Of a stretch of 58,612 bases of DNA, positions 8,761 to 58,179 are shown piece by piece; position 1 is the stretch's first letter, and each line of letters starts with the position of its first letter. Source of the DNA: a virus. The notes under the pieces were generated by a model that saw only the letters and a program-made list of their open reading frames with translations, had not been told where the DNA came from and searched no databases. The translations under genes were made by a program, and so were the position numbers. Location: positions 1 through 58,612 of IMG/VR virus record IMGVR_UViG_3300027833_000058; one strand, written 5' to 3'.

Positions 8761-8768
8761 TATTTATA
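8761..8768 (-). promoter_or_regulatory. late promoter box for the glycosyltransferase pair
   Basis: TATAAATA on the minus strand, just upstream of the terminator hairpin, which would lie between this box and the start at 8714. Confidence 0.5.
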
Positions 8769-8782
8769 TTATTTTAGTGAAA

Positions 8783-9282: not shown

Positions 9283-9290
9283 TGTATATC

Positions 9291-9425: not shown

Positions 9426-9440
9426 TGCGTTTCCTCTTTC

Positions 9441-10370: not shown

Positions 10371-10431
10371 GGAATTCCCTTTCCTAATAAATGTTTCATT
10401 GTTTTACAATAATATTTATTTAAGAAATAGG

Positions 10432-10529
10432 TAACTAAGGGTTACTCATTTTATATAGCCGGTAGTCACCTACGGAATATGTGACAAAGTGTCAATTTGA
10501 CATTTAAGAATATCCATTAACCTTAGTTA
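10432..10529. repeat. long-range inverted repeat upstream of the atpE operon
   Basis: TAACTAAGG (10432-10440) and its complement CCTTAGTTA (10521-10529) bracket about 80 bases. With one bulged G the pairing extends to 12 pairs. The right arm is followed by TTTTTATT on the plus strand. Inside are smaller inverted repeats, including TGTCAATTTGACA. On the minus strand this would be the leader region of the DUF1127-atpE operon. It could be a structured RNA, a boundary terminator or a regulatory leader. Confidence 0.5.
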
Positions 10530-10532
10530 TTT

Positions 10533-10724
10533 TTATTCATCTGGATCATCTAAATCTGGATACTGATCAGGGAATTGTTCTTTATGTGCTGCAAGCATTA
10601 ATGCCTCAGTATCAAACTCCTGTACAGTAGCGTCATCACGATACGATACAACATTAGATTCACTTAATGAAATTGCTCCATCGTTGATAATAAAATAGCC
10701 TTCTGTTTTAGTTAATATAGCCAT
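10533..10724 (-). CDS. 63-residue acidic protein downstream of the repeat protein
   Basis: The start chosen is ATG 10724 (MAILTKTEGYF). It overlaps the stop of the repeat protein as TAATG and has GGAGGAAC upstream, so the longer in-frame start at 10754 is unlikely. The protein ends in an acidic FPDQYPDLDDPDE tail. It is unrecognised. Small partners downstream of fibre-like genes are often assembly factors, but nothing here proves that. Confidence 0.6.
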   Translation of the reverse strand: MAILTKTEGYFIINDGAISLSESNVVSYRDDATVQEFDTEALMLAAHKEQFPDQYPDLDDPDE

Positions 10725-12400: not shown

Positions 12401-13635
12401 TATTTCATCCACCCTTTAATGTATTTGTCTGAAAAGTTTGCGTTACTAAATTCAAGTCTATCAATTAATTTAACTGCGTTCTTACCCATCTTATCGATAG
12501 CAACAAATCCTTCTTGGGATGTTACTTGGTAACCGTCTGCAGTTCTAAGTAGTGTGCCAACTTGCTTTGCTTTATCTAATTTTTGAATTACTTTATGTTT
12601 AGCATCAATGATTAGATTATATAATTCGAATACTGCTACTAATTGAGCAGGTTTTGTTTTTCTAAAATATTCTAACGTAGCATCTCTTTTACCACGTTGT
12701 GCTACTTTACCTTTTTCAGATTTACGTTTCTCTTCTTCGTTCTTATAGAATCGAGTAATGTAGTTCTGTAAATCTCTTACGAATGCTTTTGGATTCTTAA
12801 TTCTTTCGCCAGCACGGATTTTAGTGTTAACGAATACTTTTGTTTTTGCAAGAGTATCTGGTTCTAATGCAATACCGTCAAGTGTTTCTTTACGGATTGT
12901 TCTAAATAATTTACCAGCAGAAGATAGAATCTTGTTAAGCTCTTCTGTTTCTTTCTTTGTAAAGTTTGCTGTACCTGATATATCTTGGTAAGATGCGTCT
13001 ACTGACCAGACCGATTTTGTTCTCTTAAGATCAGAAGCAATCTCCTCTCCAAAACTTGCAGACATTTCTTCAAAGCTTGATCCTCTGTAGACTGTGTGCC
13101 ATACCACACCGACCTTGGATCCGAGAATTTGTTTGCCGAGTTCTGAGTTCTTAGGTACCGCGTAAACAATCGTATTAGGATGGAAAGTAATGTGCGGTTC
13201 ACCTTCAATATCCACCACCTTGAGATCAGCCTTATCATATAAAAAATCACCTTGTACTACGCCCTTGATACCGAGTTTTGAAAACTCAGCCAGTGCTAGC
13301 TTTAATTTAGAATTTAAACTATCTTTGCCTACTGTATCAGCATCGATATCTGCATTAGTCTTATATACCATTGGGTTCTTATTAAAGATACCCTTCTTAG
13401 CAACGAAGAACTTACCATCTGATGGATCAGTTCCACAAAATATAGCAGGAGCTCCGTCCCATTTAACCGAAACATTAACTTTGGATTTAGCAGTGCCGGC
13501 TAACATATCTCTCAACGAACGTAAGAAATTGATAGCGTCTCTTGTGCCATTTACACCGTGATTCAATATAGAATCTTCAAGATGTTCCATATGCGTGTTT
13601 TTATTTTCAGTAATATACTGTTTGAAGCCGTGCAT
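12400..13635 (-). CDS. DUF6267-like protein with ligase-type KxDG motif and targeting-like N-terminus
   Basis: The protein has 411 residues. VSVKWDGAPAIFCG near residue 60 matches motif I (KxDG) of nucleic acid ligase/adenylyltransferase folds. GVVQGDFLYD near 140 could be motif III/IIIa and GIALEP near 255 motif IV/V. Together they suggest a covalent nucleotidyltransferase, such as an RNA or DNA ligase, belonging to what I recall as DUF6267. The start MHGFKQYITEN fits the T4 capsid targeting pattern with an I-x-E cleavage site, so the enzyme may be carried in the head. Activity is inferred from motifs only. Confidence 0.65.
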   Translation of the reverse strand: MHGFKQYITENKNTHMEHLEDSILNHGVNGTRDAINFLRSLRDMLAGTAKSKVNVSVKWDGAPAIFCGTDPSDGKFFVAKKGIFNKNPMVYKTNADIDADTVGKDSLNSKLKLALAEFSKLGIKGVVQGDFLYDKADLKVVDIEGEPHITFHPNTIVYAVPKNSELGKQILGSKVGVVWHTVYRGSSFEEMSASFGEEIASDLKRTKSVWSVDASYQDISGTANFTKKETEELNKILSSAGKLFRTIRKETLDGIALEPDTLAKTKVFVNTKIRAGERIKNPKAFVRDLQNYITRFYKNEEEKRKSEKGKVAQRGKRDATLEYFRKTKPAQLVAVFELYNLIIDAKHKVIQKLDKAKQVGTLLRTADGYQVTSQEGFVAIDKMGKNAVKLIDRLEFSNANFSDKYIKGWMK

Positions 13636-14934
13636 TTAATTAGTTACCTTCATTTTAAAACCTAACTTATTCTTAGCTGCATATCCTGCCCAACCAAATT
13701 GGAAGTCAGCATCTTTAAAGTAGTTATGTTTAATCTTAATTGCTGTTTTTGATACGTTAACATTAACCTGTATTAACGTAACCTGTCTTGCCACTCTTGT
13801 AAGTGAATCTTGAATCGCTTTATCGGCGTTTAAAACTTTCCATATGTTTTCTCCTAATGGTGATAACACAAGTCTTAAAGCATCATTCTCGTCATTCTTA
13901 ATTCTATCTGTAAGAACCGTATTCATTGAGCGCCAAAATGGTTCTAGTTTTCTTATAAGATCTTCACGTGGTGTATTATCAGTAAAGTTTAGTACAGTAT
14001 CCAAATTAATATTTGGAACTCTTACACCCATAATTCCAGCAAGTAATCTTACCGGCTCTGTATCCATATATTTATGGAGTTCAAACATCTGCTCTTTCAT
14101 AGGGTATTTATTAACGATATTAAATATGGCCAATGATGGTTCACTAGCCATATCGCTTCTATCAGCAGATTTAGCCCTACGCTGAATTGCATCAATAATG
14201 TTTTGTATAGTAACTTTACCGCCACCGCCAGATTTTACTGATATTGGATATTTGATTCCAAAGCGAATTGCATAGAAGTCAATAAGTCTTTCGTTACTTG
14301 CTTTTGGAAAATGAGCTTCTTTAAATCTTAAGTTAGATATAGTCCAAATAGCAGAAAGTATTTCACCAAAGTCTGCAGATACTTTTGCAAGATCTTTAAC
14401 AGAAAAATTGTTTTCGTTTCGTATATCGTTACCAGCACCTGCTGCTCGCCACATCATATCATTAAGTTGTTTAGCAGTTGCAGGATCGTATTTCCTACGT
14501 AGTTGTCCACCAACAGTTTGAATTATATTCGGTATAGTAAGAGTCTTACCGGCAATGCCTAAATTATCTGGTGATAACGCTTTGTTAGCAAACAGTTGTG
14601 CTCCTTTAACAGAAGCTGAAGGAGCATTGTTTACCCAAGGTATTGATGAGCCACGTGGTAGCTTTGGAGATAATTGTTTAGTAGCAACTAATAGAACAGT
14701 AGGATACTTATCAGAAATTGGTGTAGGCGAGTACTCACGTACTTCGATGCCATACTTCTTTAGAAGTTTTCTATGTTCAGCCTCGTCACCTGGAACAGGA
14801 AAACGAATGTGAAAGGCACCTCTTGAAGACTGTGTAAACTTAATCTGCGGGAAAGACCTACGAATATAAGCTTTGAATTCTATTTGCTGCTGTCTCAACG
14901 TAGCCTCTATTAAATAAGATGTAAATGATTGCAC
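13636..14934 (-). CDS. large protein with targeting-like N-terminus, possible nuclease
   Basis: I place the start at GTG 14934. It has AGGA eight bases upstream and gives MQSFTSYLIEA, an exact fit to the T4 capsid targeting pattern including L-x-E|A. The ATG at 14961 would begin almost at the transcription start of the late box at 14969-14976. The protein then has 432 residues. Near residue 225 LIDFYAIRFGIKYPISVKSG has the spacing of a PD-(D/E)xK nuclease core, but the Glu is Val, so this is weak. It abuts the KxDG protein gene, and the two probably act together. It is otherwise unrecognised. Confidence 0.55.
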   Translation of the reverse strand: MQSFTSYLIEATLRQQQIEFKAYIRRSFPQIKFTQSSRGAFHIRFPVPGDEAEHRKLLKKYGIEVREYSPTPISDKYPTVLLVATKQLSPKLPRGSSIPWVNNAPSASVKGAQLFANKALSPDNLGIAGKTLTIPNIIQTVGGQLRRKYDPATAKQLNDMMWRAAGAGNDIRNENNFSVKDLAKVSADFGEILSAIWTISNLRFKEAHFPKASNERLIDFYAIRFGIKYPISVKSGGGGKVTIQNIIDAIQRRAKSADRSDMASEPSLAIFNIVNKYPMKEQMFELHKYMDTEPVRLLAGIMGVRVPNINLDTVLNFTDNTPREDLIRKLEPFWRSMNTVLTDRIKNDENDALRLVLSPLGENIWKVLNADKAIQDSLTRVARQVTLIQVNVNVSKTAIKIKHNYFKDADFQFGWAGYAAKNKLGFKMKVTN

Positions 14935-14968
14935 TTGCAATATTCCTGCGTTAATTACCATTTAACCT

Positions 14969-14976
14969 TATTTATA
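14969..14976 (-). promoter_or_regulatory. late promoter box before the 432-residue targeting-motif protein
   Basis: TATAAATA on the minus strand. It places transcription start near 14962 and supports the GTG start at 14934. Confidence 0.65.
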
Positions 14977-14980
14977 AAGC

Positions 14981-16402
14981 CTATGAAATACCACCTGCAC
15001 TAAACATTGTCTTCTTACTACTACCTTGGCCAAATGCTGTTTTGTCAAATGCTGCACCGTCATTAGATGGAGCAAAAGATGCAGTGTTAGCCGCACTTGT
15101 ACCACCAATACCACGTTGAGCACTTTCTTCAAGATCAAAGATTTGCATTTTAGATCGATCGATACCAACTACAAACCTACGATAATAACCAAGATCACCC
15201 CAACGATTTTTAAGTTGTTTGATCATTAACTGACCAAGATTGTCAAGTTCTTCAGTAGTTACAAGACCTAAGATACAATCGGCGGTGTGAGTAATACCCA
15301 TAGACTCAGAAGTATTTGTAAGATCTACATCTGAATTGCCATAACCATCACGGTTGAACTGAGATGATGAAACAACTGCACAATTATATTCCATAGCAAG
15401 ACCACGAATTTCTTCAGCAATAGATTTTACTAGAGTATAACTGTTTGCGGCTGCTGCACCTTTAATACGAGATGATGCACAAATATTAAGATAATCAATA
15501 AAGATTACGTCAGGAGTAAAGTTCTTCTTAAGTTTTAATTCATTAAGTAAGTGTCGGAAGTGACCAGCATGTGCAGAACCAGTAGGATATTCTTTAATGA
15601 CTAATTGACCAGTACACTTTGATTTGATACGATCCATACGTTTTTGATATACATCGCGTGGTAACAATTTCAATTCATCGAGTGTAACATCCATCATATT
15701 AGCATCAATACGCTCGGCTACACGTTCTTCAGCCATTTCCATAGTAATATAGAGGCAGTTCTTACCGGTCATTAGATAGCTTGCAGCAGCATGGCATTTA
15801 ACAAGAGATTTACCGCCACCTGTAGTAGCTAGCAATACTGTTAATGATTTACGAGGCAAACCACCTTTGGTAACTTTGTTGAGAAGATCAATATCGAACG
15901 GCATGCGTTCTTCTTTACGGTGGTAAAAATCATAACGATCAGCCGAGTCTTCAATGAAATCGTGACCTACCGAGCTATCAAAACTGATACCTAAAGAATC
16001 AGACAACAAATTTGGAATTGAACCCTTATCATTATCTTTGTCTTCACCATCCATAATTAGAATGGCTTTACGAATAGAATTAAATAAATCTTTATCTTGA
16101 CAGAACTTTTCAGTTTCTTTTACGAGAAAATCGAAGTTAGTATCATCATCACGTTGAAGATCATCAACCGTACCCATAACATTTTTATATGAGTCTTCGT
16201 TTAGATCTTTGCGTTTATCGAGAGATATTTTAAGAGCTTCGATTGAAGGAGGAGCTTTGTATTGCTCAACATATTCAGAATACGTCGAGAATATTTTCTT
16301 ATATGATTGATCATCAAAATACTCATCCTTAATGTAAGGATATACTTTGCGATAATATTCTTCATTAAATATAAGATTTGATAGTACAGTTGTTTCGATC
16401 AT
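14981..16402 (-). CDS. 41: replicative DNA helicase, T4 gp41-like (DnaB family)
   Basis: The protein has 473 residues, like T4 gp41. The Walker A motif LLATTGGGKS is near residue 195. DVIFIDYLNI is Walker B, and VSSSQFNRDGYG and KQLKNRWGD follow as the later DnaB motifs. It is the hexameric 5'-3' helicase of the replication fork, loaded by gp59 and paired with a primase that is outside this window. It has its own early promoter at 16470-16498 and a hairpin in its leader. Confidence 0.95.
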   Translation of the reverse strand: MIETTVLSNLIFNEEYYRKVYPYIKDEYFDDQSYKKIFSTYSEYVEQYKAPPSIEALKISLDKRKDLNEDSYKNVMGTVDDLQRDDDTNFDFLVKETEKFCQDKDLFNSIRKAILIMDGEDKDNDKGSIPNLLSDSLGISFDSSVGHDFIEDSADRYDFYHRKEERMPFDIDLLNKVTKGGLPRKSLTVLLATTGGGKSLVKCHAAASYLMTGKNCLYITMEMAEERVAERIDANMMDVTLDELKLLPRDVYQKRMDRIKSKCTGQLVIKEYPTGSAHAGHFRHLLNELKLKKNFTPDVIFIDYLNICASSRIKGAAAANSYTLVKSIAEEIRGLAMEYNCAVVSSSQFNRDGYGNSDVDLTNTSESMGITHTADCILGLVTTEELDNLGQLMIKQLKNRWGDLGYYRRFVVGIDRSKMQIFDLEESAQRGIGGTSAANTASFAPSNDGAAFDKTAFGQGSSKKTMFSAGGIS

Positions 16403-16429
16403 TTAAATATCCAGTGTTTAAGTTGAAAA

Positions 16430-16450
16430 CTGGCGAGAAACCCCGCCAGT
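16430..16450 (-). terminator. hairpin in the gp41 leader
   Basis: ACTGGCG and CGCCAGT form a 7-bp stem, followed on the minus strand by TTTTC. It lies between the gp41 promoter and the gp41 start, and also downstream of uvsX. It may end uvsX transcripts or attenuate gp41. The T-run is short, so strength is doubtful. Confidence 0.5.
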
Positions 16451-16469
16451 CTTTTCAATTATTAAGTAT

Positions 16470-16498
16470 ATAATAACATACATTATATAGATTGTCAA
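16470..16498 (-). promoter_or_regulatory. early sigma70-type promoter for gene 41
   Basis: TTGACA, 17 bp, TATTAT read on the minus strand, with AATAG before the -35. Transcription would start near 16463. Confidence 0.8.
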
Positions 16499-16501
16499 CT
16501 A

Positions 16502-17599
16502 TTAACTTGCAATCGCTGCATCATCGTTATCATCAATGACATCGTCAAGCTCTTCAACTGTGTCTTCTCGCATGATCGCGCCAGATGCACCAATAGTGTA
16601 AGCATTCTTGATATAGGTACTGAAGTCAGTTTTCTCAAACATCATCATCCAGAAGTCTTTGCTGTTTTGTACTTCCTTAGCACGCATTAACTTTTCAGAT
16701 AGAACTTCACCTGTTGCAGGATTAATAGCTTCATACCAACCAACTTTAGGCTTAGTAAGATAACCACCTTTCTCAGCAATATCCATCAATCCAGACCACT
16801 TAACAATGCCACCTTCCCAAGATACCGAGACTGGAATCTTAGACTTCTCTTTAACATGTCGAGATTTCTCAACGTTAATAATGAAGTGATAGCCTTGAAT
16901 TTCAGTACCAACCTTATCTTGTTGACGACCAATAATCCAGATAGCATCTGCTGAGTAGTAAATACCTGTACCACCAGAAACAACAGCCTTAGGGAACAAT
17001 CCAATTTCTTGATATGTGTGGTTAACAGCAATCAATGGAATATCTTTAAGGTTTAGATGTGGTGTTACAATACGGAACAGAGATTTAAGAGCCTTAGCTC
17101 GTGACATATCTGCTACTGATTTACCGTCGAGTGCGTCAGCAACTTCTTTCTTAGAAGCAAGGTTACCAATTGAATCAATAACAATAATTACTTTTTCAGC
17201 CTTAGTAATACTATCTAACTGATGGGCAATATCAAACTTAAGTTCTTCAACATTAGTAATTGGTGTATGAACTACGCGATCCATATCAATACCAAAGCTT
17301 TCGAAGTAAGCCTGAGGTGTACCAAATTCTGCATCATAGAATAACAATACAGCATCTTTGTTTTTTTGCATATAAGCACCTGCCATCAACAATGCGAATG
17401 CTGATTTAAAGTGCTTTGATGGACCTGCCAAGACGAGTAGTCCTGGAGAAACACCACCGTCAATACGACCCGATAGTGCAACGTTTACCATTGGCACATT
17501 AGTTGGTGCCATATCTTTTTTACCGTACACTTTAGATTCCATTAATGGTGCTGACATCTTAATTGTACTGTTTTTCACCAGCCTGTCTAATAGACTCAT
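16502..17599 (-). CDS. uvsX: RecA-like recombinase UvsX
   Basis: The protein has 365 residues. The Walker A motif GPSKHFKS is at 59-66, and IVIDSIGNL is Walker B. AVNHTYQEIGLFPKAVVSGG covers the loop region typical of T4 UvsX. It forms the strand-exchange filament on gp32-covered DNA with the help of UvsY, which is also encoded here (32322-32759). A GAAGGAGA Shine-Dalgarno precedes the start. It follows gp32 and a 108-residue protein in one unit. Confidence 0.95.
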   Translation of the reverse strand: MSLLDRLVKNSTIKMSAPLMESKVYGKKDMAPTNVPMVNVALSGRIDGGVSPGLLVLAGPSKHFKSAFALLMAGAYMQKNKDAVLLFYDAEFGTPQAYFESFGIDMDRVVHTPITNVEELKFDIAHQLDSITKAEKVIIVIDSIGNLASKKEVADALDGKSVADMSRAKALKSLFRIVTPHLNLKDIPLIAVNHTYQEIGLFPKAVVSGGTGIYYSADAIWIIGRQQDKVGTEIQGYHFIINVEKSRHVKEKSKIPVSVSWEGGIVKWSGLMDIAEKGGYLTKPKVGWYEAINPATGEVLSEKLMRAKEVQNSKDFWMMMFEKTDFSTYIKNAYTIGASGAIMREDTVEELDDVIDDNDDAAIAS

Positions 17600-17600
17600 A

Positions 17601-17927
17601 TCAATCTCCTTCTACGATTGTTAACAATTTAGCTTTATATCCCTGAATTTTAGTAACTCGGTCTGGCCAGTAAATTGTTGATTTATCTGGGTTCTTACAT
17701 AGATTATCTAAGAACGGTGTTATAGATTTGTAAAGGAGTTCCAACCTATATTCAAGGTCGTCAGCAGCGAGCTTTTGATCATTCAATTGATCTTGAATGG
17801 TCGCCTTCTCACTGCTAACTTTTTGAATAGCATCTTTGGCTTCAGCTTCTTTCTCTTGAATTTCTTCATCGATAAAGCTGAAACCAAAGTCAAAGTCTAG
17901 AACTTCTTCATAGACTTTGTTAGCCAT
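17601..17927 (-). CDS. 108-residue coiled-coil protein between gp32 and UvsX
   Basis: Residues about 15-65 form a charged coiled coil. The C-terminus contains KSTIYWPDRVTKIQGYKAKL, a block I recall from proteins at the same place in marine T4-like phages. Function is unknown. It overlaps the gp32 stop by 8 bases and lies one base before uvsX, so an accessory role in replication or recombination is plausible. Confidence 0.65.
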   Translation of the reverse strand: MANKVYEEVLDFDFGFSFIDEEIQEKEAEAKDAIQKVSSEKATIQDQLNDQKLAADDLEYRLELLYKSITPFLDNLCKNPDKSTIYWPDRVTKIQGYKAKLLTIVEGD

Positions 17928-21309: not shown

Positions 21310-21856
21310 CCATTTCTTTTGAAAGTTCATCAAATAATTCTGAAGCAAAATCAAAACATATTTTTGCCTCATCAGCCATATCGTCTGATAACAATGTTCT
21401 AAACTGTTCAATAAGAACTTTAGTGTCACCTTCGAATTCGTACATCAAGCCATTGCCTGGAGTTTTCTTTTTGATAATTTGTCCACCGTGTAATTCACCA
21501 AAGTGGCGAACATACATATGCGCAAGTAAAGCTTCGTTATCATCAGCTTCTGCTAATCCATTAACATATGCTGCATACTTACTTACTGATGGAGGAAACA
21601 CGCCTGTAGGAGAGTAACCGAAGACTTCTTCTAGTTCTCTAATATCTTCAAAGATACGTCTATGACGTTTGATAGCGTGTAAGTTTGGGGGGATGATAGT
21701 GTGTCGTTCTAGTACTTCGTAATTCATGTACTGACAACATAGGAATTTGTGATACAAGGCTGTATCGATTTTTCCTGAAATAAGTTCTTTAGCAAATGCT
21801 CTTCGCTCAGCAGACTGATGGTGAGCCCAAGTTAATTCTTTCAATTTGTTTGACAT
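21287..21856 (-). CDS. heme oxygenase
   Basis: The protein has 189 residues. The proximal heme ligand is H13 in AHHQSAERRAF, matching the family HxxAE motif. The distal helix motif is GELHGGQIIKK. The enzyme opens heme to biliverdin, CO and iron. It is followed in the same unit by the bilin reductase, giving a heme-to-phycobilin route. It could also serve iron release alone. The gene starts just after the tmRNA coding piece and may be transcribed from the tmRNA promoter. Confidence 0.92.
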   Translation of the reverse strand: MSNKLKELTWAHHQSAERRAFAKELISGKIDTALYHKFLCCQYMNYEVLERHTIIPPNLHAIKRHRRIFEDIRELEEVFGYSPTGVFPPSVSKYAAYVNGLAEADDNEALLAHMYVRHFGELHGGQIIKKKTPGNGLMYEFEGDTKVLIEQFRTLLSDDMADEAKICFDFASELFDELSKEMVDKATIT

Positions 21857-21879
21857 AATATCCTCTTTAATAATTAAAG

Positions 21880-22175
21880 TGCCACTTTTCTGTTGCTAAG
21901 TAAGTGGCCAACTCCCTGTGATTATGCCGCTAGGGCTAATCCAGATGGTGCGAAATTTTCATTTGCATTTAGTTTAATTGATCTATGCGCGATCATCCGG
22001 TAAACTCCACTTCACTACAACACCTGTCGATCCTAGTTCAGCCCCATCAAAAACACACTACCCGCTTTATCAGATACGTTCCAGAATTAACTGGAATAGT
22101 GTGTTTTTGGTGGAGCTGTCGGGTACTGCCCCCGAGTCCAGCATGTTTTCACGTTGCTTCAACGTTTACAATATT
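21880..22175 (-). ncRNA. ssrA: circularly permuted, two-piece tmRNA (alphaproteobacterial type)
   Basis: On the minus strand the acceptor piece comes first: a T arm TCGGG-GGCAGTA-CCCGA, then CAGCTCCACCA ending at 22108. An intervening segment follows that folds through AAAACACACTA and TAGTGTGTTTT. The coding piece starts at 22045 with GGGGCTGAACTAGGATCGACAGG. GGGGCTG pairs with CAGCTCC in 7 bp including a G3-U70 wobble, the alanine identity pair. The tag frame is at 21966-21922 and reads ANENFAPSGLALAA then TAA. AGTTTA/TAAACT closes a stem just before the tag, and a pseudoknot (GTTG/CAAC with GCCACTT/AAGTGGC) follows it. The exact outer ends are approximate. Confidence 0.93.
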
Positions 22176-22210
22176 ATTTATATAATATACTAGTAACAGA
22201 CGCTTGTCAA
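22175..22210 (-). promoter_or_regulatory. combined early and late promoter of the tmRNA
   Basis: AACTGTTGACA, 17 bp, TATTAT on the minus strand (22182-22210). A perfect late box TATAAATA (22182-22175) overlaps the end of the -10. The gene can thus be read by both host sigma70 and gp55 polymerase. Confidence 0.78.
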
Positions 22211-22217
22211 CAGTTAT

Positions 22218-22463
22218 TTAATCATAACCTAAAACGGCAACTTTAGACATCTCTGCAATGCGTAATTCTGTTACACGATCTTCATATGCTACATCGAAAC
22301 CTTCTTCGGCATATTGGCATCTCTCGTGATTGCCCCATAATCTTTTAAAATAACTATCATAAAGGTATTCAACTACAGAGTCAGGTTCTGCTTTATCAAT
22401 TAGTTGACCTTTTACCATCCAATTCAAACGGTTGGCTTCTTTACGTACTTCTGGTGAGCACAT
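22218..22463 (-). CDS. 81-residue protein of unknown function
   Basis: I chose ATG 22463 (MCSPEVRKEANRLNW) because GGAGG lies eight bases before it; the ATG at 22490 has no ribosome site. The protein is mixed-charge and helical, with no signal or known motif. A CATAAATA sequence, one base off the late box, lies about 30 bases upstream. Confidence 0.55.
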   Translation of the reverse strand: MCSPEVRKEANRLNWMVKGQLIDKAEPDSVVEYLYDSYFKRLWGNHERCQYAEEGFDVAYEDRVTELRIAEMSKVAVLGYD

Positions 22464-33322: not shown

Positions 33323-33359
33323 TTGACATTATGTTAAGCTTATGGTATATTTATAAATA
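33323..33359. promoter_or_regulatory. bidirectional late promoter nested in an early promoter
   Basis: The palindrome TATTTATAAATA (33348-33359) holds a late box on each strand: minus for the tail-tube gene and plus for the 23-residue frame. On the plus strand TTGACA (33323-33328), 17 bp, TATATT (33346-33351) overlaps it. Confidence 0.65.
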
Positions 33360-47916: not shown

Positions 47917-48243
47917 ATGGCTATTACATTATCAGCTGCTGCTGAAAAACATATTATCAGAAATCTATCTGAGCGAAAGCAAGGTGTGGGTGTCCGTCTT
48001 GGTGTTAAAACTACGGGATGCTCTGGTCTTGCTTATGTGATAGAATTTGTAGATACTGCTGAAGAACAAGACATTCTTTATAAGTGCGGCGAAATAGATG
48101 TGTTTGTTGATCCTAAAAGTAATGTGTATTTAAACGGAACTCAATTAGATTTTGTTAGAGAAGGTTTAAACGAAGGATTCATATTTAAAAATCCTAATGT
48201 AAGTGCTGAATGCGGATGTGGTGAAAGTTTTACAGTAAACTGA
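47917..48243 (+). CDS. iscA: A-type Fe-S cluster carrier (IscA/HesB family)
   Basis: The protein has 108 residues. The three cluster-binding Cys are present as C35 in TTGCSG and C99, C101 in ECGCGESF. It inserts Fe-S clusters into apo-enzymes. It could support the phage's two radical SAM proteins and the ferredoxin-dependent bilin reductase (inference). No Shine-Dalgarno is visible; the gene follows the GNAT-like stop by 11 bases. Confidence 0.92.
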   Translation: MAITLSAAAEKHIIRNLSERKQGVGVRLGVKTTGCSGLAYVIEFVDTAEEQDILYKCGEIDVFVDPKSNVYLNGTQLDFVREGLNEGFIFKNPNVSAECGCGESFTVN

Positions 48244-49575: not shown

Positions 49576-49585
49576 AATGTTAAAG

Positions 49586-49624
49586 AATAGGGAGAGTCAT
49601 TATTTGGCTTTCCCTATTTTTTTA
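49586..49624 (+). terminator. strong terminator after groES
   Basis: AATAGGGAGAG and CTTTCCCTATT pair over 11 bp with one wobble around an 11-base loop, followed by a run of seven T. Confidence 0.88.
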
Positions 49625-50012: not shown

Positions 50013-50024
50013 TATTTATAAATA
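50013..50024. promoter_or_regulatory. palindromic bidirectional late promoter
   Basis: TATTTATAAATA gives TATAAATA on both strands: minus for the EF-hand gene and plus (50017-50024) for the tail-fibre block. Confidence 0.75.
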
Positions 50025-50067: not shown

Positions 50068-50259
50068 ATGGCAATTAAAATAGCTAATCAAACAATAATC
50101 AGTGATGCACGTGAGTTGCAAAATATTGCGTCAACAGACGTAGATACACGAAATGCAATTAATAACGCGATTGCTTTACAAAGTAATGTTCTTACAATTT
50201 ATGATTCTTTAGGCAGCCCTGTTAGAGTGTTTTACGCAGCCAACGCCGTTATAACTTAA
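50068..50259 (+). CDS. 63-residue protein at the head of the tail-fibre operon
   Basis: AAGGAGAGACGAAG precedes ATG. MAIKIANQTIISDARELQN then SNVLTIYDSLGSPVRVFYAAN. It resembles short beta-rich fibre-associated proteins. Function is unknown. Confidence 0.55.
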   Translation: MAIKIANQTIISDARELQNIASTDVDTRNAINNAIALQSNVLTIYDSLGSPVRVFYAANAVIT

Positions 50260-50284: not shown

Positions 50285-52468
50285 ATGGCGATAAGAAGAC
50301 CAGTATATTTGTTTGCTGACCCTACGCTGACCCCAATAACATCAGATTTTTATGAATATAACGATAGCTTTATGGCAGATATTCTGGCATTTGCTTCTTA
50401 CGTTCACGCACAAGATCCTGGACCAAAACTAGAAGTTAATACTTCAAACGGCACTCAGATGCCGAATCAAGGGTTTACAGATACTTATTATATTGCAGGT
50501 GCATCAACAACTCGAACAGAAAGATTTTCTACTGCAGCTGAAACACCTAATGTTTCTATGTCAACTGACACATATAATAGAATACGTATTGTTAATAATC
50601 AAGGTACGCTTCCAACAACGGATGCAAACAACTTAGAATATCCTTTGTATCTAACTGATGATACACCTAGACAATTACGAGCAATGACTCGACAAGATTT
50701 TCTGGATACATTTGTTACACCTGCTTTAGATAATTGGCTTGGTACAGTTGCAAACGAACAAGGTGGTACTTATTTCTTAACAACATCTGCTAACCCAGCA
50801 AATGCTACTATTGTTGGATCTGTTCCTGCCGCAGTAAACTCTGTTGCTAACTTAAGTGCATATTCATCTGGTGGTATTGGAGAAGCGGTCAAGCAAACAA
50901 CTGATATAAATTATTGGCTTGCTAAAGTAGATTATTCAGAAGTTGATTTTGATCCTATGGAAGACTCATTACCAATGTATTTCGACGCCGGTACTGAAAC
51001 AATCAGAATGCATACTCTCGCCAGTTGGACTGCTTTATTAGGTCCTTTCTTAAGATACTATCTTGGAGGCGGTTCTCCAACTCATACTATTTCATATAAC
51101 ATTAATGGAAGTGGTACAACACAAGGCTCAATCTTTACAGATTCTCGCCGTACTCCAACAGGTACTGGTTATACTACACGATATGTTAATGTAGACGATT
51201 ATAGAACTCAAGAATTTCCTACTGGTACAGAATCTACGATAGCAGGAACTGAGAAAAGATTAAAAATGCAAATTGGAGTGACTGAATCTATTGCTCTACT
51301 TGGTTCGTCTGCTACTCCACAAGAGTTCGACAGCTCTGGTCCTATAGATGATGGTGGATGGAAAGCACAAAACGGATTTACATTTACATCTTCAGGTAAT
51401 ATCGAAGAAAAAGATTATTTTTATGACGGAGCACAACAAACATTTAGTACTAGCGAATGGTGCAATGTTACTCCAACGGGTAATTACTGGATAAGATTTA
51501 CTGATGACACTGCTGCAACATCTGGTGGAACATCTCGTGTCCCTGCTACAGGTCAGAATTTCACAGAAACTGGTTCAACTGCAACGTATTGGAGAATATT
51601 ACAAGATTTCTTTGGTGTTTGGACAGATCTTAGTATAGTTGATAACGGTACACAGGTTTACTATCAACGATTCACGGGTCCAGACCGTCAAACTAATGCG
51701 GCGGCGGTTACATCGAAATACGTAGGTGCTAAGCAGTACTTCAGAGGAACAGTCGGGTCGTCTTACTCTTACACTGTAAATTATGGTATTTACTATACAC
51801 AACAGACCTCAACACGTGTTACTGCTAATGCTGGCTCTTCGTTTGGTACTTGGCTTGCTATGACTTCTGATAGAAGCATTTACTGGAACGATACGTCGGC
51901 GGCAGGTGCTTATGCCAGTCGTTTTATGCAAGTTAAAGTAGAAATTTCTGATGACGCAGCCGGTTCTAATATTTTAGACACTGGATATTATCGAACATCC
52001 TGGCATGGTGACCAAGCTGTAGAAGTACAGTTACCTTCTGCAATGAGTGCGGTCGCAGAAAGCAACGGCTTAAGCGGTTCCTGTAGTGCTTATATAGAGT
52101 GGAATCCATCCGGCACTACCGGTACCGCATTGGTGACTGGACTTGGTAATCCAGGCAGCGGTACTGGAACAGTTAGTTGGCTTAGTGCCGGTGCTACTGC
52201 TAGTGATTACGAAGTAAGATTTAGTTATACAGAATCTTTAACTGGTGGTGGTAGTACAACAGGATATACAAACACCACAAGCAACACCGGAATACCTACA
52301 ACAGGAGCTTGGTATGCTGCAGAGTCTCAACATCAATGGAAAGTCATCGATTCAGGGACACCATCGACAAACAGTAGCATAATCGGAACTGTTCAAATTA
52401 GACAACAATCTACTGGTACAGTACTAGCAACATCAAATGTCTCGCTTTCAGCGAATAACGACCCGTAA
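50285..52468 (+). CDS. tail-fibre-like virion protein
   Basis: The protein has 727 residues, rich in Thr, Ser, Gly and Tyr, and low in Lys. Several similar beta-type modules follow an N-terminal region with LEYPLYLTDDTPRQLRAMTRQDFLDT. Repeated Gly/Thr/Ser motifs (GGGSTTGYTNTTSNTG) near the end are typical of fibre tips. GAGGAATAAAAA precedes the start. A host-recognition fibre is the likely role. Confidence 0.7.
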   Translation: MAIRRPVYLFADPTLTPITSDFYEYNDSFMADILAFASYVHAQDPGPKLEVNTSNGTQMPNQGFTDTYYIAGASTTRTERFSTAAETPNVSMSTDTYNRIRIVNNQGTLPTTDANNLEYPLYLTDDTPRQLRAMTRQDFLDTFVTPALDNWLGTVANEQGGTYFLTTSANPANATIVGSVPAAVNSVANLSAYSSGGIGEAVKQTTDINYWLAKVDYSEVDFDPMEDSLPMYFDAGTETIRMHTLASWTALLGPFLRYYLGGGSPTHTISYNINGSGTTQGSIFTDSRRTPTGTGYTTRYVNVDDYRTQEFPTGTESTIAGTEKRLKMQIGVTESIALLGSSATPQEFDSSGPIDDGGWKAQNGFTFTSSGNIEEKDYFYDGAQQTFSTSEWCNVTPTGNYWIRFTDDTAATSGGTSRVPATGQNFTETGSTATYWRILQDFFGVWTDLSIVDNGTQVYYQRFTGPDRQTNAAAVTSKYVGAKQYFRGTVGSSYSYTVNYGIYYTQQTSTRVTANAGSSFGTWLAMTSDRSIYWNDTSAAGAYASRFMQVKVEISDDAAGSNILDTGYYRTSWHGDQAVEVQLPSAMSAVAESNGLSGSCSAYIEWNPSGTTGTALVTGLGNPGSGTGTVSWLSAGATASDYEVRFSYTESLTGGGSTTGYTNTTSNTGIPTTGAWYAAESQHQWKVIDSGTPSTNSSIIGTVQIRQQSTGTVLATSNVSLSANNDP

Positions 52469-52483
52469 ACAAGGAAATGAATA

Positions 52484-53065
52484 ATGGCAATTTTTAGTGA
52501 CAAAATAATAAATGCGGTTTACGCAAATCCTGAATATACTTTGATTAAAATCAGATACGAAGATGATGATGGCAATGTTTGCCCTCACGTGATAGACGTT
52601 GATCCAAACCATTCTGACTTTAAGGCTTTAGAAGCTGAGGGTTGGAACACTGAAAAATTAATTGATGAAACCGCAGAATTTCTTCGTGCACAATCTGCTG
52701 CTTGGAATACAGAAGTTAACGCAGCGGCACAGCAAATTGCACAAGAAATGATTGGTACAACTGTGCTTATAAAAGAAAAAAGTGAATTGGACGTAAAAGT
52801 TAAAGACGCTAAGATTGCTCTTGATAAGAGTCAAGAAAAGCTTGATAAACTTGGCAGTCAAGAGTTTGACACGATTCAACGTTCCAAGAATGCTATTTTC
52901 CAATTCTTGTGGGATGCAGATGATAACAAAGATGAGCTATTTAAATTTAAGCTTTGGGCGTTAGAGCTAGACTTTGTTAAGAGCGCAGATAAGTCTGTTA
53001 AATCATCTCTACGTAAAGCAAAAACAATTATTGATGGTTTAGTAATTTTAAAATCCATTAAATAA
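52484..53065 (+). CDS. 193-residue coiled-coil protein, possible fibre assembly factor
   Basis: The N-terminal beta region (YTLIKIRYEDDDGNVCPHVI) is followed by long helical, coiled-coil-like sequence and a Lys-rich end. The position directly after the fibre gene is where assembly chaperones often lie. AAGGAAATGAATA precedes the start. Function is inferred from place only. Confidence 0.55.
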   Translation: MAIFSDKIINAVYANPEYTLIKIRYEDDDGNVCPHVIDVDPNHSDFKALEAEGWNTEKLIDETAEFLRAQSAAWNTEVNAAAQQIAQEMIGTTVLIKEKSELDVKVKDAKIALDKSQEKLDKLGSQEFDTIQRSKNAIFQFLWDADDNKDELFKFKLWALELDFVKSADKSVKSSLRKAKTIIDGLVILKSIK

Positions 53066-53066: not shown

Positions 53067-54137
53067 ATGTGGTTTAATAATTATGAACGTGGTAAGCTCA
53101 CGTTAGATATAGAGCTTACCACAAATTGCAACGCGAAGTGCCCTCAATGTACTCGTACAGATACTGATAATAACCTTAATAGAATGTCGTGGCTAAAACT
53201 TAACCAAGTTTCAATCGACGATTTTAAGTCGTGGTTTACTCTGTCAGAAATCCAAAAAATTAAGCAATTCCATTTCTCAGGCACGTATGGTGATCCTGGA
53301 ATGTGCAAAGACTTGTACTTGATAGTAGAACATATTATTAATAATTCAAATGCGCATGTTTCTATTAACACCAACGGTGGTATGCGAGATGCTGACTTTT
53401 GGTTTGATTTGGGTGCTATTGGCCAAAAGCGTTTATCATTAATATTTGATGTTGATGGTATTAATCAGGAAATGCATCAGTTTTATAGAAGAGGTGTTAA
53501 ACTTGAAAAGGTATTAGAAAACCTCGAAGCTGCAGCAATGACCCCTGCTAAAATTGAAGTGCTTACTGTGTTATTTAAACATAACGAAGACTACCTTAAT
53601 GAAATACAAGAAATGTGCAGAGACTTAGGCGCAACTCACTTTGATAGTGTTGAAGGTAATAACTTTAAAGCTGGTCCAATATATAAATTTAATAATGAAC
53701 AAGGTAAGCCTGAACAACTAGAACAAATTATTAAAATAGAAAGCCATCAAGACGCAGCCAGACTTGACCGTAGAGTAAGAGATCATAGGCACGAAGCTGT
53801 TGCTAAAAATATTAAATGTGCGGCAGCCGAAAACTTTAATTTAAAAATTAATAGCGATGGAATGATTACACCGTGTTGTTATGTTTCAACAGCATTGGGA
53901 TGGGCATCAGGTATGCGAGACACTCATCCCATAGATGGTTATATAACTGATAGCGGAAATCATGGCGATGATATTAATCCGTTAATGAAAGAGTTTGTTG
54001 ATAGACGTGATGATTTTACATTAGGTAAAACTCAATTTGAAACAATTTTAAAAGATTCGTGGTTTTCTAAACAATTAGAAGAATCATTTAAATCTAGACC
54101 AGCGTTTGCTTGTAAAAAGGTGTGTAGTATATGTTAG
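53067..54137 (+). CDS. radical SAM protein with SPASM-type C-terminus (first of a tandem pair)
   Basis: The protein has 356 residues. CNAKCPQC near residue 20 is the CxxxCxxC [4Fe-4S]-SAM motif. HFSGTYGDPGM and INTNGGMRDADFWFDLG match radical SAM core strands. KCAAAENFNLKINSDGMITPCC and CKKVCSIC supply auxiliary-cluster Cys. Such SPASM enzymes modify peptides, proteins or sugars. It overlaps the next gene by 7 bases. Confidence 0.85.
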   Translation: MWFNNYERGKLTLDIELTTNCNAKCPQCTRTDTDNNLNRMSWLKLNQVSIDDFKSWFTLSEIQKIKQFHFSGTYGDPGMCKDLYLIVEHIINNSNAHVSINTNGGMRDADFWFDLGAIGQKRLSLIFDVDGINQEMHQFYRRGVKLEKVLENLEAAAMTPAKIEVLTVLFKHNEDYLNEIQEMCRDLGATHFDSVEGNNFKAGPIYKFNNEQGKPEQLEQIIKIESHQDAARLDRRVRDHRHEAVAKNIKCAAAENFNLKINSDGMITPCCYVSTALGWASGMRDTHPIDGYITDSGNHGDDINPLMKEFVDRRDDFTLGKTQFETILKDSWFSKQLEESFKSRPAFACKKVCSIC

Positions 54138-55255
54138 CAGCTTGGGACTCAAATGACATTAGTGTCTTTATGGATATATCAACATATTGTAATGCTGGGT
54201 GTCCACAATGTCATAGGACAGATAACAACGGCTTGGGTAAAGTTGATTGGTTACCATTAGTACAATGGACAATTGATCAATTTAAAACTGCGTTCTCTGC
54301 AAAAACTATGAGTCATATTAAAAGATTTCATTTCTGTGGTACGTGGGGCGATCCCATTATGGTTAAAGATATTTTAAAAATTGTTAAGTACATTATTCAA
54401 TATAGCAATGCTCGAGTATCATTTGATACTAACGGAAGTATGCGTAGCGAAGAATTTTGGTGGGACCTCGGAGTATCTGGTGGTGATAGATTAACGTTGC
54501 GCTTTGATGTTGACGGTATTAATCAAGAGATGCATCAACACTATCGTAGATTTACAGACTTAAGTAAAGTTCTTAATCATATGAGTATTGCTTCACAAAC
54601 AAATTGTAAAGTTGCTGCTCAAACTATTTTGTTTAAACATAACGAAGATTATAAAAATGAGATTAAATCTTTATGCGAAAAGCATGGATCTAAAGCTCAC
54701 GTATTTGTATCAAGCGACAGATTTAAACCCGGCCAAAACGCAACACAGCACACAGATGAAAACGGTAATGCTTTTATACTCGAAAAAGCCGGTACTAAAG
54801 TTATAGCAACGGACAATATAATACCTGTTAAATCAATTAAAGAACAACCAAAAAATATTGTAATACCTGTTAAGCCAGCACCAGTTAAAGAACAACCAAA
54901 GGTATCTGCAGCAGTAACTCAACCAAAACATGATATTGAGTGTGCTTGGGCTAAACCTCGTAATGAAATTATAGTAAGCTATGACGGTCAGGTGTTACCT
55001 TGTTGTTATCACCAAAACAATTATCATACAAATAGAAATTACTTTATAGACAGAGATCCATTATATACAGAATACGAAGATAATAAATTAAAATATAATG
55101 TTTTGCACGAACCTTTAAAAGATATTATAGATAGCAAATGGTGGAGCGGCACACTTGTTGATAGCATAGCAAACAATCCCATAAGAACTTGTATTGTAAA
55201 CTGTGCTAAGAAAACAGGTAATGCTAAAAACCAAAAAAGAGTACATATGAAATGA
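54131..55255 (+). CDS. radical SAM protein with SPASM-type C-terminus (second of the pair)
   Basis: The protein has 374 residues and is a clear paralogue of the previous one (CNAGCPQC; HFCGTWGDPIM; FDTNGSMRSEEFWWDLG; FDVDGINQEMHQ). It contains an extra Pro/Lys-rich linker near residues 230-275 with a duplicated IPVK...KEQPK unit. The auxiliary Cys are CAWAKPRNEIIVSYDGQVLPCC and CIVNCAKK. The two may form a heterodimer or act in sequence. Confidence 0.85.
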   Translation: MLAAWDSNDISVFMDISTYCNAGCPQCHRTDNNGLGKVDWLPLVQWTIDQFKTAFSAKTMSHIKRFHFCGTWGDPIMVKDILKIVKYIIQYSNARVSFDTNGSMRSEEFWWDLGVSGGDRLTLRFDVDGINQEMHQHYRRFTDLSKVLNHMSIASQTNCKVAAQTILFKHNEDYKNEIKSLCEKHGSKAHVFVSSDRFKPGQNATQHTDENGNAFILEKAGTKVIATDNIIPVKSIKEQPKNIVIPVKPAPVKEQPKVSAAVTQPKHDIECAWAKPRNEIIVSYDGQVLPCCYHQNNYHTNRNYFIDRDPLYTEYEDNKLKYNVLHEPLKDIIDSKWWSGTLVDSIANNPIRTCIVNCAKKTGNAKNQKRVHMK

Positions 55256-55872
55256 ATATTATTTTTGTCAAGCACGGTGATAAGTATAGTGCAGAACACG
55301 TGAATAAGTTGTACCATCAACTAATGCAATATTATCCAGATGCAGATTATCTATGTTACACAGACGATCCAACCGACGTTTGTATTCCTTGTATGCCGGT
55401 TTTAACTAAACCAACTCTAAAGTTCTGGTGGAATAAGCTTGCTTTATTTAGCGAGGATCTTGTTCTTGCTGGCATTAAAGGTAAGTGTTTATATTTTGAT
55501 TTGGATATGGATATTAAAGAAGATCCAACTAATTTTATTAAGTGGGGTGGGCTTAACATACTTGACGCGTATTGGAAAGCTGATATGTATATACCCAAAC
55601 ATGCTTACGACGTTCGTATAAATAGTTCTGTAATCACTTGGACTGTCGGTGAACAAAATCATATCTGGGATCACTTTCTGTCTAACAAAGACTACTTTAT
55701 GAGAAAGTATGCTGGGATTGATAGATTCTTAGTACACGAAAACATAGAATTTAATACTCACTACGATGGCATTGTAAACAGTGTTGCGAATGAATTTAAA
55801 AATGCACCAATTGATATGTATAATGGAATAAAATATGACGTTGAAAGAAACACTATACAAGAATGCTCTTAA
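55252..55872 (+). CDS. GT8-like glycosyltransferase
   Basis: The protein has 206 residues. CLYFDLDMDIKEDP holds the metal-binding DXD, and LKFWWNKLALFSEDLV and NSSVITWTVGEQ match nucleotide-diphospho-sugar transferase folds. The start overlaps the radical SAM stop (ATGA). Donor and acceptor are unknown. Confidence 0.75.
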   Translation: MNIIFVKHGDKYSAEHVNKLYHQLMQYYPDADYLCYTDDPTDVCIPCMPVLTKPTLKFWWNKLALFSEDLVLAGIKGKCLYFDLDMDIKEDPTNFIKWGGLNILDAYWKADMYIPKHAYDVRINSSVITWTVGEQNHIWDHFLSNKDYFMRKYAGIDRFLVHENIEFNTHYDGIVNSVANEFKNAPIDMYNGIKYDVERNTIQECS

Positions 55873-56479
55873 AGCAATAGAAGAAATATACGTTAACTCA
55901 AAGTATGATCCTAACGTAGATTTGTATCGTAGCTTTGATATAATCAATTCTGTAAACGAAAATCAAATCAAAAACAAAGAATGGTTAGTAGATACTTTGC
56001 TGCCATACATTGACCAAGATAAGCTCAAGCACGTAGTAATACTTGGCAGCTGGTACGGCTTGCTATCAGTAATGTTACAACCAAAACTATCACCTGATAT
56101 TGAAATACGTAATGTTGATTCCGACAAACAAACACTTATGTTTGGAAGAAAGTTAATACAAGATATGGATTTTAATAATATTGTATTTGAAGAGGATGAT
56201 GCTGGAGAATACTTTTTTGAAAAGTCTGATAAATTCCAACTCATTATAAACACTAGCTGCGAGCACATGGAACAAGATGATTTATCTCTTATAATATCTA
56301 TGAAACCTAGAGATACATTAATATGTTTTCAAGGCAATAACTATGATAGCATACAAAGCCATATTAATACACACGATAGTTTAGAAAGCTTTGTTGACTC
56401 ACTGGGGTTATATAAAGTTTATCACAGTGAAACTCTCGAGATGGAAAACTACAATAGATACATGGTGATTGGTATATGA
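55835..56479 (+). CDS. class I SAM-dependent methyltransferase-like protein
   Basis: The protein has 214 residues. HVVILGSWYGLLSVML is the Gly-rich SAM-binding motif I. IEIRNVDSDKQTL gives the acidic residue at the end of strand 2, and FQLIINTSCEHMEQDDL is motif IV. It overlaps the glycosyltransferase gene by 38 bases and the next gene by 4. It probably caps or methylates a sugar or protein. Confidence 0.7.
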   Translation: MTLKETLYKNALKAIEEIYVNSKYDPNVDLYRSFDIINSVNENQIKNKEWLVDTLLPYIDQDKLKHVVILGSWYGLLSVMLQPKLSPDIEIRNVDSDKQTLMFGRKLIQDMDFNNIVFEEDDAGEYFFEKSDKFQLIINTSCEHMEQDDLSLIISMKPRDTLICFQGNNYDSIQSHINTHDSLESFVDSLGLYKVYHSETLEMENYNRYMVIGI

Positions 56480-58179
56480 AAAGAATTATATTTACTATAT
56501 TTGATGATATTGATTCTGGCACAGATCGGTGGGGTGTTGCAGACGCTGCGAAACATATGCATAACGAGTACTTTGACAAACTTGTGGCAAACAAAGAAGA
56601 GTATGCTAATAGCTTAATTAATGTAGAATTTAAATTATATCATAACACAATGAATGATTTTGATGTTGCTGGCGAGTTAGAGTTTACTAAAGTTAATCTA
56701 TATAAACACCATCTTATGGCTAAGTTGGCTGAAGAATATGACGAAGTAATGTATGTTGATATGGATGTTCTTTTTAATACAGACGAAAACGTGTTTGACG
56801 AATTAGATTTAAATAACGGCATTCATATTATAGACCAGGACGACGCAGTTGAAAATAAAAATGTTGATGAAGTAATATTTAAAATGATTGGGCTGAGAAA
56901 TCCAACGTTAAAGTACCACATTACAAAAGATTTATTGAATGGTAAAGAAAATCATGTAATGAACACTGGTATTGTGATCGGTAAAAGCGAACATATCAAA
57001 CAAATTAAGTTTATTGAACGTCTTCCAGGTATTATCGAAAAGATTAATAAGCTTAAAGAATCACATACTGTTTATTTAAGAGCACATTATTATCCAAACA
57101 ATGAATCAGTATTTTCGTATATAATGGAAGAATATAATATACCATATGTTATTATGGATAAAGAATGGAATTATATTGTAGACCACTATCCAAACGAAAT
57201 AGATCCTAACGCAAAGATATATCACTTCATAAATAAAAAGTTTAATGCATTCTTTAAAGATAAGACTCAAGCAATCTTTTCTATATACATTGATATTCCC
57301 GATGAAGATTTAGACTCTCCTTCTGATTTTAAAGATGATGAGGTACCTAAAAGTAAACGCACAAAAGAAAGATTCGCAAAATATAAAGACCGATTGGAAA
57401 ACAACCATAAAGAATATGCTAATGCAATTAATGCTGAATATTTAATATTCGGTAGAGATAAACAATACGAAGATTTTAAATCTAGGTTTCCTATGTTATC
57501 CGAGTATGATGTTATTAATTTATATAAGATATACTTGTTAGATAAGTTAGTTAACGAATATGATTTAGTTATGTATATTGATATGGATGTTTATTTCAGA
57601 CGTAATATTAATGTATTCAATTACGTTCCATGCGAAAGCATTTGGTGTTGTATGTATGAAACACCGGAAGCTGCTGGTGTTATGTTTAATAGTAGTGCGT
57701 ATTTGAAATGGTACAGGCATGACTTTAGAAATCCAGAGTCTAAGTTTTGGAATGCACATGCTCTTTTAACTGAAGAAGATTTAGATACTAATGATTTAGT
57801 TATCTTTAATACCGGTGTTATAATGTCGAGTAAAAGAGTAATGGATAAGATTGATTACTTTTCTGATATTGACAAAGTTATTGAAACAATGACTGAAGTA
57901 AAAGAATACTCTATGTATACTGATAAAATTAGAGATTCATTTGGATATGATAACGAAACTATTATGTCATACAAGGTTTGTAAAAATGAAGTACCAATAT
58001 ATGATATGCCAAAATGGTGGCATCATAAAAATCATTATTGGAGCAAGAAATCTTTTGATCCAACTCACAGAGATTACACATTAGCAAAACACGAATATGA
58101 TTCGAAAACAAAACAAGCAAATTCTGTTATAATACATTTTATCTCTAAACATTTTGAGTTAGCTTTTGATGAAAACTAA
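56476..58179 (+). CDS. double-domain GT8-like glycosyltransferase
   Basis: The protein has 567 residues. Two homologous halves each carry the strand-DXD motif: YVDMDVLFN near residue 98 and YIDMDVYFR near 370, preceded by LAEEYDEVM and LVNEYDLVM. Each half also has a MNTGIVIG or FNTGVIMS segment. It may add two sugars or act as a polymerase. It ends the readable glycosylation block. Confidence 0.78.
   Translation: MKRIIFTIFDDIDSGTDRWGVADAAKHMHNEYFDKLVANKEEYANSLINVEFKLYHNTMNDFDVAGELEFTKVNLYKHHLMAKLAEEYDEVMYVDMDVLFNTDENVFDELDLNNGIHIIDQDDAVENKNVDEVIFKMIGLRNPTLKYHITKDLLNGKENHVMNTGIVIGKSEHIKQIKFIERLPGIIEKINKLKESHTVYLRAHYYPNNESVFSYIMEEYNIPYVIMDKEWNYIVDHYPNEIDPNAKIYHFINKKFNAFFKDKTQAIFSIYIDIPDEDLDSPSDFKDDEVPKSKRTKERFAKYKDRLENNHKEYANAINAEYLIFGRDKQYEDFKSRFPMLSEYDVINLYKIYLLDKLVNEYDLVMYIDMDVYFRRNINVFNYVPCESIWCCMYETPEAAGVMFNSSAYLKWYRHDFRNPESKFWNAHALLTEEDLDTNDLVIFNTGVIMSSKRVMDKIDYFSDIDKVIETMTEVKEYSMYTDKIRDSFGYDNETIMSYKVCKNEVPIYDMPKWWHHKNHYWSKKSFDPTHRDYTLAKHEYDSKTKQANSVIIHFISKHFELAFDEN

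Follow-up and report, generated by a model that had tools for sequence, protein, structure and literature searches.

In pelagimyophages, a host-recognition island has been described that holds radical SAM (rSAM) cassettes together with GT8 genes, and its authors suggest a role in LPS modification (PMC7029224). A T4-like marine EVG genome is reported to carry up to 12 rSAM genes as well as an A-type Fe-S carrier (PMC5332604). The presence of rSAM genes in phage host-recognition islands is already known. What we describe here, a module that combines a constant frame with a variable slot, and the split enzymes, was not found in the literature searched. Searches for split Twitch rSAM enzymes, for rSAM modification of virions and for this module returned nothing from the open literature, subscription journals lying mostly outside the search.

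The stretch of DNA analysed here (the window) is an IMG/VR virus record of 58,612 bases from a marine bacteriophage with a T4-like gene content. It carries a permuted, phage-borne tmRNA gene of alphaproteobacterial type (21831-22225, minus strand; RF01849, 115 bits; tag ANENFAPSGLALAA), so that the host is probably an alphaproteobacterium; L092, one close relative, was binned as a Rhodobacteraceae genome. The GC content drops to 0.30-0.33 between 54001 and 58000, the region of rSAM B and the glycosyltransferases, from about 0.37 elsewhere. The locus of interest lies near the right end of the window and is made up of the following features, in which TATAAATA is the T4 late-promoter consensus:

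50013-50024, both directions: palindromic TATTTATAAATA, a match to TATAAATA each way, 43 nt before the plus-strand 63-aa ORF
50068-50259, plus strand: ORF of 63 aa that precedes FIB; most relatives that share this gene order have a small ORF here
50285-52468, plus strand: FIB, 727 aa, probable tail or receptor-binding protein
52484-53065, plus strand: CHAP, 193 aa, a partner always near FIB; putative chaperone, judging from position only
53067-54137, plus strand: rSAM A, 356 aa, radical SAM core with a fused C-terminal Twitch-like domain
54131-55255, plus strand: rSAM B, 374 aa, radical SAM core, disordered Pro/Lys linker and C-terminal Twitch-like domain
55252-55872, plus strand: GTa, 206 aa, DxD glycosyltransferase, PHROG 1962 (7e-11)
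55835-56479, plus strand: MT, 214 aa, probable SAM-dependent methyltransferase, with a weak Pfam MTS match below the cut-off
56476-58179, plus strand: GT8x2, tandem fusion of two GT8-like glycosyltransferases, with DMD in each half

Relatives were collected by a scan with an alignment of four rSAM sequences; DNA-pattern scans with single proteins gave only 0 and 3 relatives. Among viral contigs the alignment scan returned 112 rSAM relatives, 80 of which were retained, and among 84,980 genomes of bacteria and archaea it returned only 4, two counts that are not strictly comparable because the viral and cellular scans used different short patterns. One of the four cellular relatives sits on what is plainly a phage contig within a bin. 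When 295 genomes of the L092 family were searched, strong matches outside the phage-bearing bin appeared in two genomes only. The Rhodobacteraceae bin G004 (L092 and contig C173), several contigs of which carry phage-type rSAM genes, is probably contaminated or carries phages.

With near-copies removed and two added isolate phages included, 60 non-redundant rSAM loci formed the neighbourhood set. GTa is present in 31 of them, MT in 30, the CHAP family in 27, the FIB family in 25 and a carbamoyltransferase cluster in 17. An earlier note on this DNA had proposed co-occurrence with the fibre gene in relatives as a check, and the FIB count, reached in varied orders and orientations, bears it out strongly. 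The order seen in the window, FIB-CHAP-rSAM-GTa-MT-GT8x2, is accompanied by others, such as GTa-MT-GT8b-GT8b-rSAM facing CHAP-FIB on the opposite strand, or FIB-GTa-MT-rSAM-Twi-CHAP. Conserved neighbours in a changing order argue for a shared job over the simple descent of one block. As these loci had been chosen for having an rSAM, a control scan was anchored on CHAP only and was blind to rSAM; it recovers the window-type gene order only. FIB-CHAP-slot-GTa-MT-GT8x2 was found in about 15 divergent phages, and all CHAP-anchored loci long enough to reach GT8x2 have this arrangement. The slot holds no rSAM in L110, one in L101 and L114-L117, two in L102, L107, L113 and L119, three in L098, L108 and L103 (one of those of L103 is split), four in L097 and L118, and five in L106, which is the same record as L057; an unrelated ORF is also present in some slots. 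The rSAM genes are the changeable part of an otherwise stable cassette. Three architectures occur among the slot enzymes, namely a core with a C-terminal Twitch domain (as in rSAM A and rSAM B), a core with a separate Twitch gene, and a core with an N-terminal Twitch domain. In L057, five tandem rSAM genes (5473-11170) lie between CHAP and GTa, four of them with an N-terminal SPASM/Twitch-like region and one of A-type.

The rSAM genes of the window had been noted earlier as two overlapping tandem paralogues with SPASM auxiliary cysteines. Both ORFs are present, overlap by 7 nt and encode proteins that are 34% identical over 377 columns (E=2e-73), an alignment that marks them as paralogues. Membership of the radical SAM superfamily is supported for both by the profile and by the core CX3CX2C motif (C21/25/28 in rSAM A, C20/24/27 in rSAM B), the three cysteines of which are invariant across 40 relatives. 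Against Pfam Radical_SAM (PF04055; cut-off 29.5 bits), rSAM A scored 52.9 bits (6.4e-14), and rSAM B scored 28.8 bits (1.6e-6) in the protein scan, just below the cut-off, and 30.1 bits in the genome search, above it. The SPASM assignment has to be revised. Each copy does have auxiliary cysteines (CX13GX4CC and a C-terminal CX3CX2C in rSAM A, CX14GX4CC and CX3C in rSAM B), but the scores of 16.8 and 19.5 against the SPASM profile PF13186 lie under the Pfam cut-off of 21.5, and the seven-Cys SPASM pattern with its two auxiliary clusters (CX9-15GX4C ... CX2CX5CX3C ... C) is absent from both. A Twitch-like domain with a predicted single auxiliary cluster fits better than a full SPASM domain; in rSAM B the motifs amount to one auxiliary site with about four Cys ligands in a C-terminal extension, and the predicted fold aligns to BtrN and MoaA over its whole length. 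The family NF033640 (N_Twi_rSAM) is not a home for either protein, since their Twitch domain is C-terminal and not N-terminal; rSAM A reached 48 bits (9.3e-13) against a cut-off of 170, and rSAM B gave no match. An A-type Fe-S carrier is encoded about 5 kb before the pair (47917-48243, plus strand; PF01521, 1.6e-19), its cluster (k27) lies near the module in several relatives too, and it could supply the Fe-S clusters of the rSAM enzymes.

On the tree of cores, rSAM A belongs to a clade with copies from L057, L079, L089, L013 and L092 (99/99 support), and rSAM B to another group (90/88). The ordered A-B pair is confined to the window, L013 and L092; of the two types, only B occurs in L012, L014, L015, L016 and L023, and only A in L057 and L089. 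This distribution describes the two as old paralogues, neither a recent duplication nor an obligate pair. A heterodimer had been raised with the first description of the pair; an obligate one is rejected in view of the separate clades, the single-type loci and the existence of a locus, L110, that has no rSAM. The Pro/Lys linker of rSAM B with its duplicated motif (IPVKSIKEQPK / IPVKPAPVKEQPK), also pointed out at that time, is indeed there and is missing from L001, the nearest relative of rSAM B; residues 227-250 and 255-260 are predicted to be disordered (pLDDT<50).

The core with a separate Twitch protein, as judged from gene structure, is a two-polypeptide arrangement that is common in relatives, unlike the A-B pairing. 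Separate ORFs for the two parts are found in 33 relatives, including L030, L041, L058, L061 and L077. In the isolated Pelagibacter phage Mosig they are Mosig_00084 (211 aa, annotated 'molybdenum cofactor biosynthesis enzyme') and Mosig_00085 (112 aa, 'hypothetical'), which overlap by 8 nt. The Twitch ORF begins at the position of rSAM B residues 258-268, just before the auxiliary Cys271, in 49 of 59 copies, and the others have longer called starts and aligned elsewhere. The linker of rSAM B (residues 227-260) thus sits at the joint where split relatives separate core and Twitch. Sequencing frameshifts and programmed frameshifting were rejected as explanations. The second frame is +1 in 20 cases, +2 in 12 and 0 in one, and the overlaps range from 0 to 86 nt, a variation that speaks for two genes; the Twitch ORF also has its own start, and the split form is present in the isolate Mosig. 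The distribution of split and fused forms requires only 2 changes on the core tree (shuffled mean 19.0; one change is possible too), which indicates that the state is old and stable and is a further argument against frameshifting.

Within nine genes of the split enzymes, 25 of the 33 relatives have neither FIB nor CHAP, some of these contigs being short, and many split forms have gp46/gp47, a carbamoyltransferase and an SGNH-like gene as neighbours. A second context of this kind, gp47-gp46-rSAM-Twi-carbamoyltransferase-SGNH-VWA, away from FIB, is seen in L032, L039, L041, L053 and L061. Phage rSAMs and glycosyltransferases are known from DNA-modification loci, and the adjacency of related split rSAMs to the gp46/gp47 recombination genes would suit a pathway of DNA hypermodification, or one acting on another small molecule, the closeness to tail genes then being an accident of hypervariable islands that collect such genes. 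We regard this as very improbable, given that FIB-CHAP-slot-GTa-MT-GT8x2 recurs across the divergent phages of the CHAP-anchored scan and that the same families lie beside FIB in other arrangements.

A model of rSAM B was built from an alignment of 40 sequences (pLDDT 85.5). Its fold matches were SuiB (Z = 20.0), BlsE (19.5), SkfB (18.8), anSME (18.5), MoaA (17.7) and BtrN (15.3), a set with mixed substrates, comprising peptide, sugar-nucleoside, nucleotide and aminocyclitol. The model thus resembles peptide-acting and sugar-type Twitch/SPASM enzymes almost equally, and since the best matches mix substrate classes, the fold alone does not name the substrate. With the rSAM sequence profile, the best PDB match was the cytosylglucuronate decarboxylase BlsE (1.5e-7); single-sequence searches of the PDB gave no match for rSAM A, rSAM B, GTa and GT8x2, and one weak match for MT.

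FIB consists of a core of about 330 aa (50285-51337), which homologues share, and a C-terminal extension. The core contains three homologous repeats of about 105 aa (hhalign probability 96, 93 and 69), was modelled with a pLDDT of 85, and carries near its end a conserved YRxQEFPxG motif in which Y306, Q309 and P312 are strictly conserved. The earlier note had seen a fibre gene and its putative assembly protein before the rSAM pair; a tail-type gene and a small partner are present, but no known family or fold could be assigned to the 'fibre'. Family and fold searches with FIB gave no family and no convincing fold match, the weak best being the MVB12B MABP domain (Z = 5.1), and a missing match does not show a new fold. 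FIB homologues adjoin VrlC/baseplate genes, and from this synteny a tail role is probable. CHAP has a central, variable, coiled-coil-like part and a C-terminal LFKFKLWALE motif; a tblastn search with it found none in phage isolates, and its profile nonetheless matches in Mosig.

These data bear on the possibility that the rSAMs act directly on FIB residues, by crosslinking, epimerisation or C-H functionalisation in the style of RiPP maturases, with the glycosyltransferases either working independently or adding to the modified residue. The peptide modifiers SuiB and SkfB at the top of the fold comparison, the strictly conserved FIB residues, and the position of the slot next to CHAP and FIB in all loci of the window's gene order are what such an activity would lead one to expect. 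We nevertheless consider it unlikely. BlsE and MoaA fit the fold about as well as the peptide enzymes, the FIB of L110 keeps the same conserved motif though this phage has no rSAM, and most split-type relatives are away from FIB. Furthermore, the core motif begins about 20 residues from the N-terminus in rSAM A and rSAM B, leaving no N-terminal RRE-like extension, and no RRE (PqqD-like) domain was recognised in either protein or in the module proteins scanned. Of the two options in the earlier note, a modification of fibre residues or of a sugar that is then extended, the sugar appears the better. It is favoured because other phages have the rSAM families of the module in company with carbamoyltransferases, a DegT aminotransferase and an epimerase, because the two best host-genome relatives stand beside a probable glycosyltransferase (named by eye) and a carbamoyltransferase, and because of the many split relatives away from FIB and the lack of a recognised RRE-like domain. 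In the isolate Mosig EXVC030M, whose FIB is Mosig_00097, the neighbours of the same genes include a DegT sugar aminotransferase and a carbamoyltransferase of the NodU/CmcH type.

The genes behind the rSAM pair had been read as a series of GT8, methyltransferase and double GT8. The methyltransferase and a duplicated GT8-like pair hold, but the first gene, GTa, is a PHROG 1962 glycosyltransferase and is not GT8 by Pfam. GT8x2 is a true internal duplication whose halves match at 1.9e-19, and its counterparts are two separate genes in other phages. We call it GT8-like because 3 of 11 orthologues match PF01501 (Glyco_transf_8; best 5.3e-7), although the protein of the window is not among them.

The window contains 16 copies of TATAAATA where 9.5 would be expected, and 13 of these sites are located at most 90 nt upstream of a same-strand ORF. 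The two palindromic TATTTATAAATA sites, at 33348-33359 and 50013-50024, both lie between divergent genes and look like bidirectional late promoters. An intrinsic-terminator match (49582-49622) closes the preceding operon, and from CHAP through GT8x2 each gene overlaps the next or is separated from it by 1 nt. Of the 16 module loci examined, 12 have TATAAATA at a distance of 226-296 nt upstream of FIB (among the remaining four is one that begins within FIB), and from this the cassette is probably expressed late together with the tail gene. No close, position-conserved TATAAATA was found just after CHAP in the module loci; several have one inside GTa at a similar place, a possible extra internal start before MT-GT8x2.

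The main rival places the chemistry on the host surface: the cassette would alter the host LPS core or capsule recognised by FIB, and so block superinfection, in a manner like seroconversion, or keep virions from sticking to debris. The GT8 family contains LPS-core transferases, and a receptor-binding protein and a modifier of its receptor would be expected to co-evolve as well. A host-directed role is also the published view of the GT8 genes in pelagimyophage host-recognition clusters, where they are interpreted as LPS modifiers (PMC7029224). The TATAAATA site before FIB and the tight gene packing, which suggest late expression with the tail gene, tell against it, and neither a sugar flippase nor a membrane or polyprenol-linked glycosyltransferase, of the kind present in gtrABC-like serotype-conversion cassettes, could be recognised in the module proteins that were scanned, the contig ending inside the next gene. 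Overall, remodelling of the host surface strikes us as rather unlikely, if a serious contender.

The reading we favour, with a confidence that falls slightly short of even, is a late cassette that glycosylates a virion protein and in which the rSAMs tailor the sugar. One late operon, reaching from 50068 to at least 58179, would produce the tail, probably receptor-binding, protein FIB, with CHAP helping its assembly. GTa and the two GT8-like domains would build a short glycan on FIB, which MT would methylate, and the slot rSAM/Twitch enzymes would tailor the sugar, for example by oxidation, deoxygenation or epimerisation via H-atom abstraction, with the Twitch cluster binding the substrate or passing electrons. 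As the slot is swapped freely (0-5 enzymes, three architectures) while the rest is constant, it may be an exchangeable chemistry module through which the surface shown by the virion is varied. We infer in this scheme that FIB is in the virion and is the acceptor, that transcription is late, and that the rSAM substrate is a sugar rather than a peptide. Several points weigh against glycosylation. The enzymes also occur independently of FIB, as the split relatives without nearby FIB or CHAP, many of them beside gp46/gp47, demonstrate; the top places in the fold comparison, though tied, go to rSAMs that modify peptides; no homologue of FIB with a proven role is known, and most phage isolates lack the protein; and the pelagimyophage precedent points to LPS. 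The wider proposal, that a swappable set of rSAMs, some of them naturally divided between a core and a free Twitch Fe-S subunit, installs and varies unusual chemistry on the virion receptor-binding protein, whether on peptide or on glycan, and so changes host recognition chemically and not through sequence, is possible but doubtful.

With its constant frame and variable slot, the module is a testable case in which phages with 0, 1, 2 and 5 rSAMs can be compared. What the auxiliary cluster contributes is an old question in the study of Twitch/SPASM enzymes, and the natural split core/Twitch pairs would allow it to be tested by subunit add-back. The module also offers a concrete alternative to the 'LPS modification' view of many glycosyltransferases in marine phage islands, and a variable slot in a stable cassette suggests that the phage tail or the host surface receives a chemical decoration that can be varied.

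Among known systems, the pelagimyophage host-recognition cluster shares a hypervariable island downstream of VrlC, tail-fibre genes, GT8 and rSAM-related cassettes; it differs in that its description, as far as the available text goes, favours host LPS and does not define a module, a constant frame with a variable slot, a late promoter or split rSAMs (PMC7029224). The T4-like marine genome resembles the window in its many rSAM genes and A-type carrier, whereas the accessible part of that work views the rSAMs as Fe-S metabolism and draws no tie to tail modification (PMC5332604). The N_Twi_rSAM family has its likeness in the slot enzymes of L057, with SPASM/Twitch N-terminal to the core, unlike rSAM A and rSAM B. 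With MoaA, BtrN, BlsE, SkfB, SuiB and anSME, rSAM A and rSAM B have in common the CX3CX2C core and a C-terminal auxiliary Fe-S domain with CX13-14GX4C, and the predicted fold of rSAM B is similar (Z = 15-20) at only 11-17% identity by fold; unlike these enzymes, the window-type family often has Twitch as its own gene and is almost restricted to viruses. Finally, the Campylobacter phages CP220 and F379 have tandem rSAM genes and NDP-sugar-transferase-like genes, lying roughly 2 kb downstream of the baseplate genes gp5/PAAR, but their rSAMs show no more than 25-29% identity, over part of their length, and an amidinotransferase-like gene is included. In CP220 (L006), the rSAM array, the amidinotransferase-like gene and two nucleotide-sugar-transferase-like genes occupy 9276-17859, and this array is possibly a parallel system.
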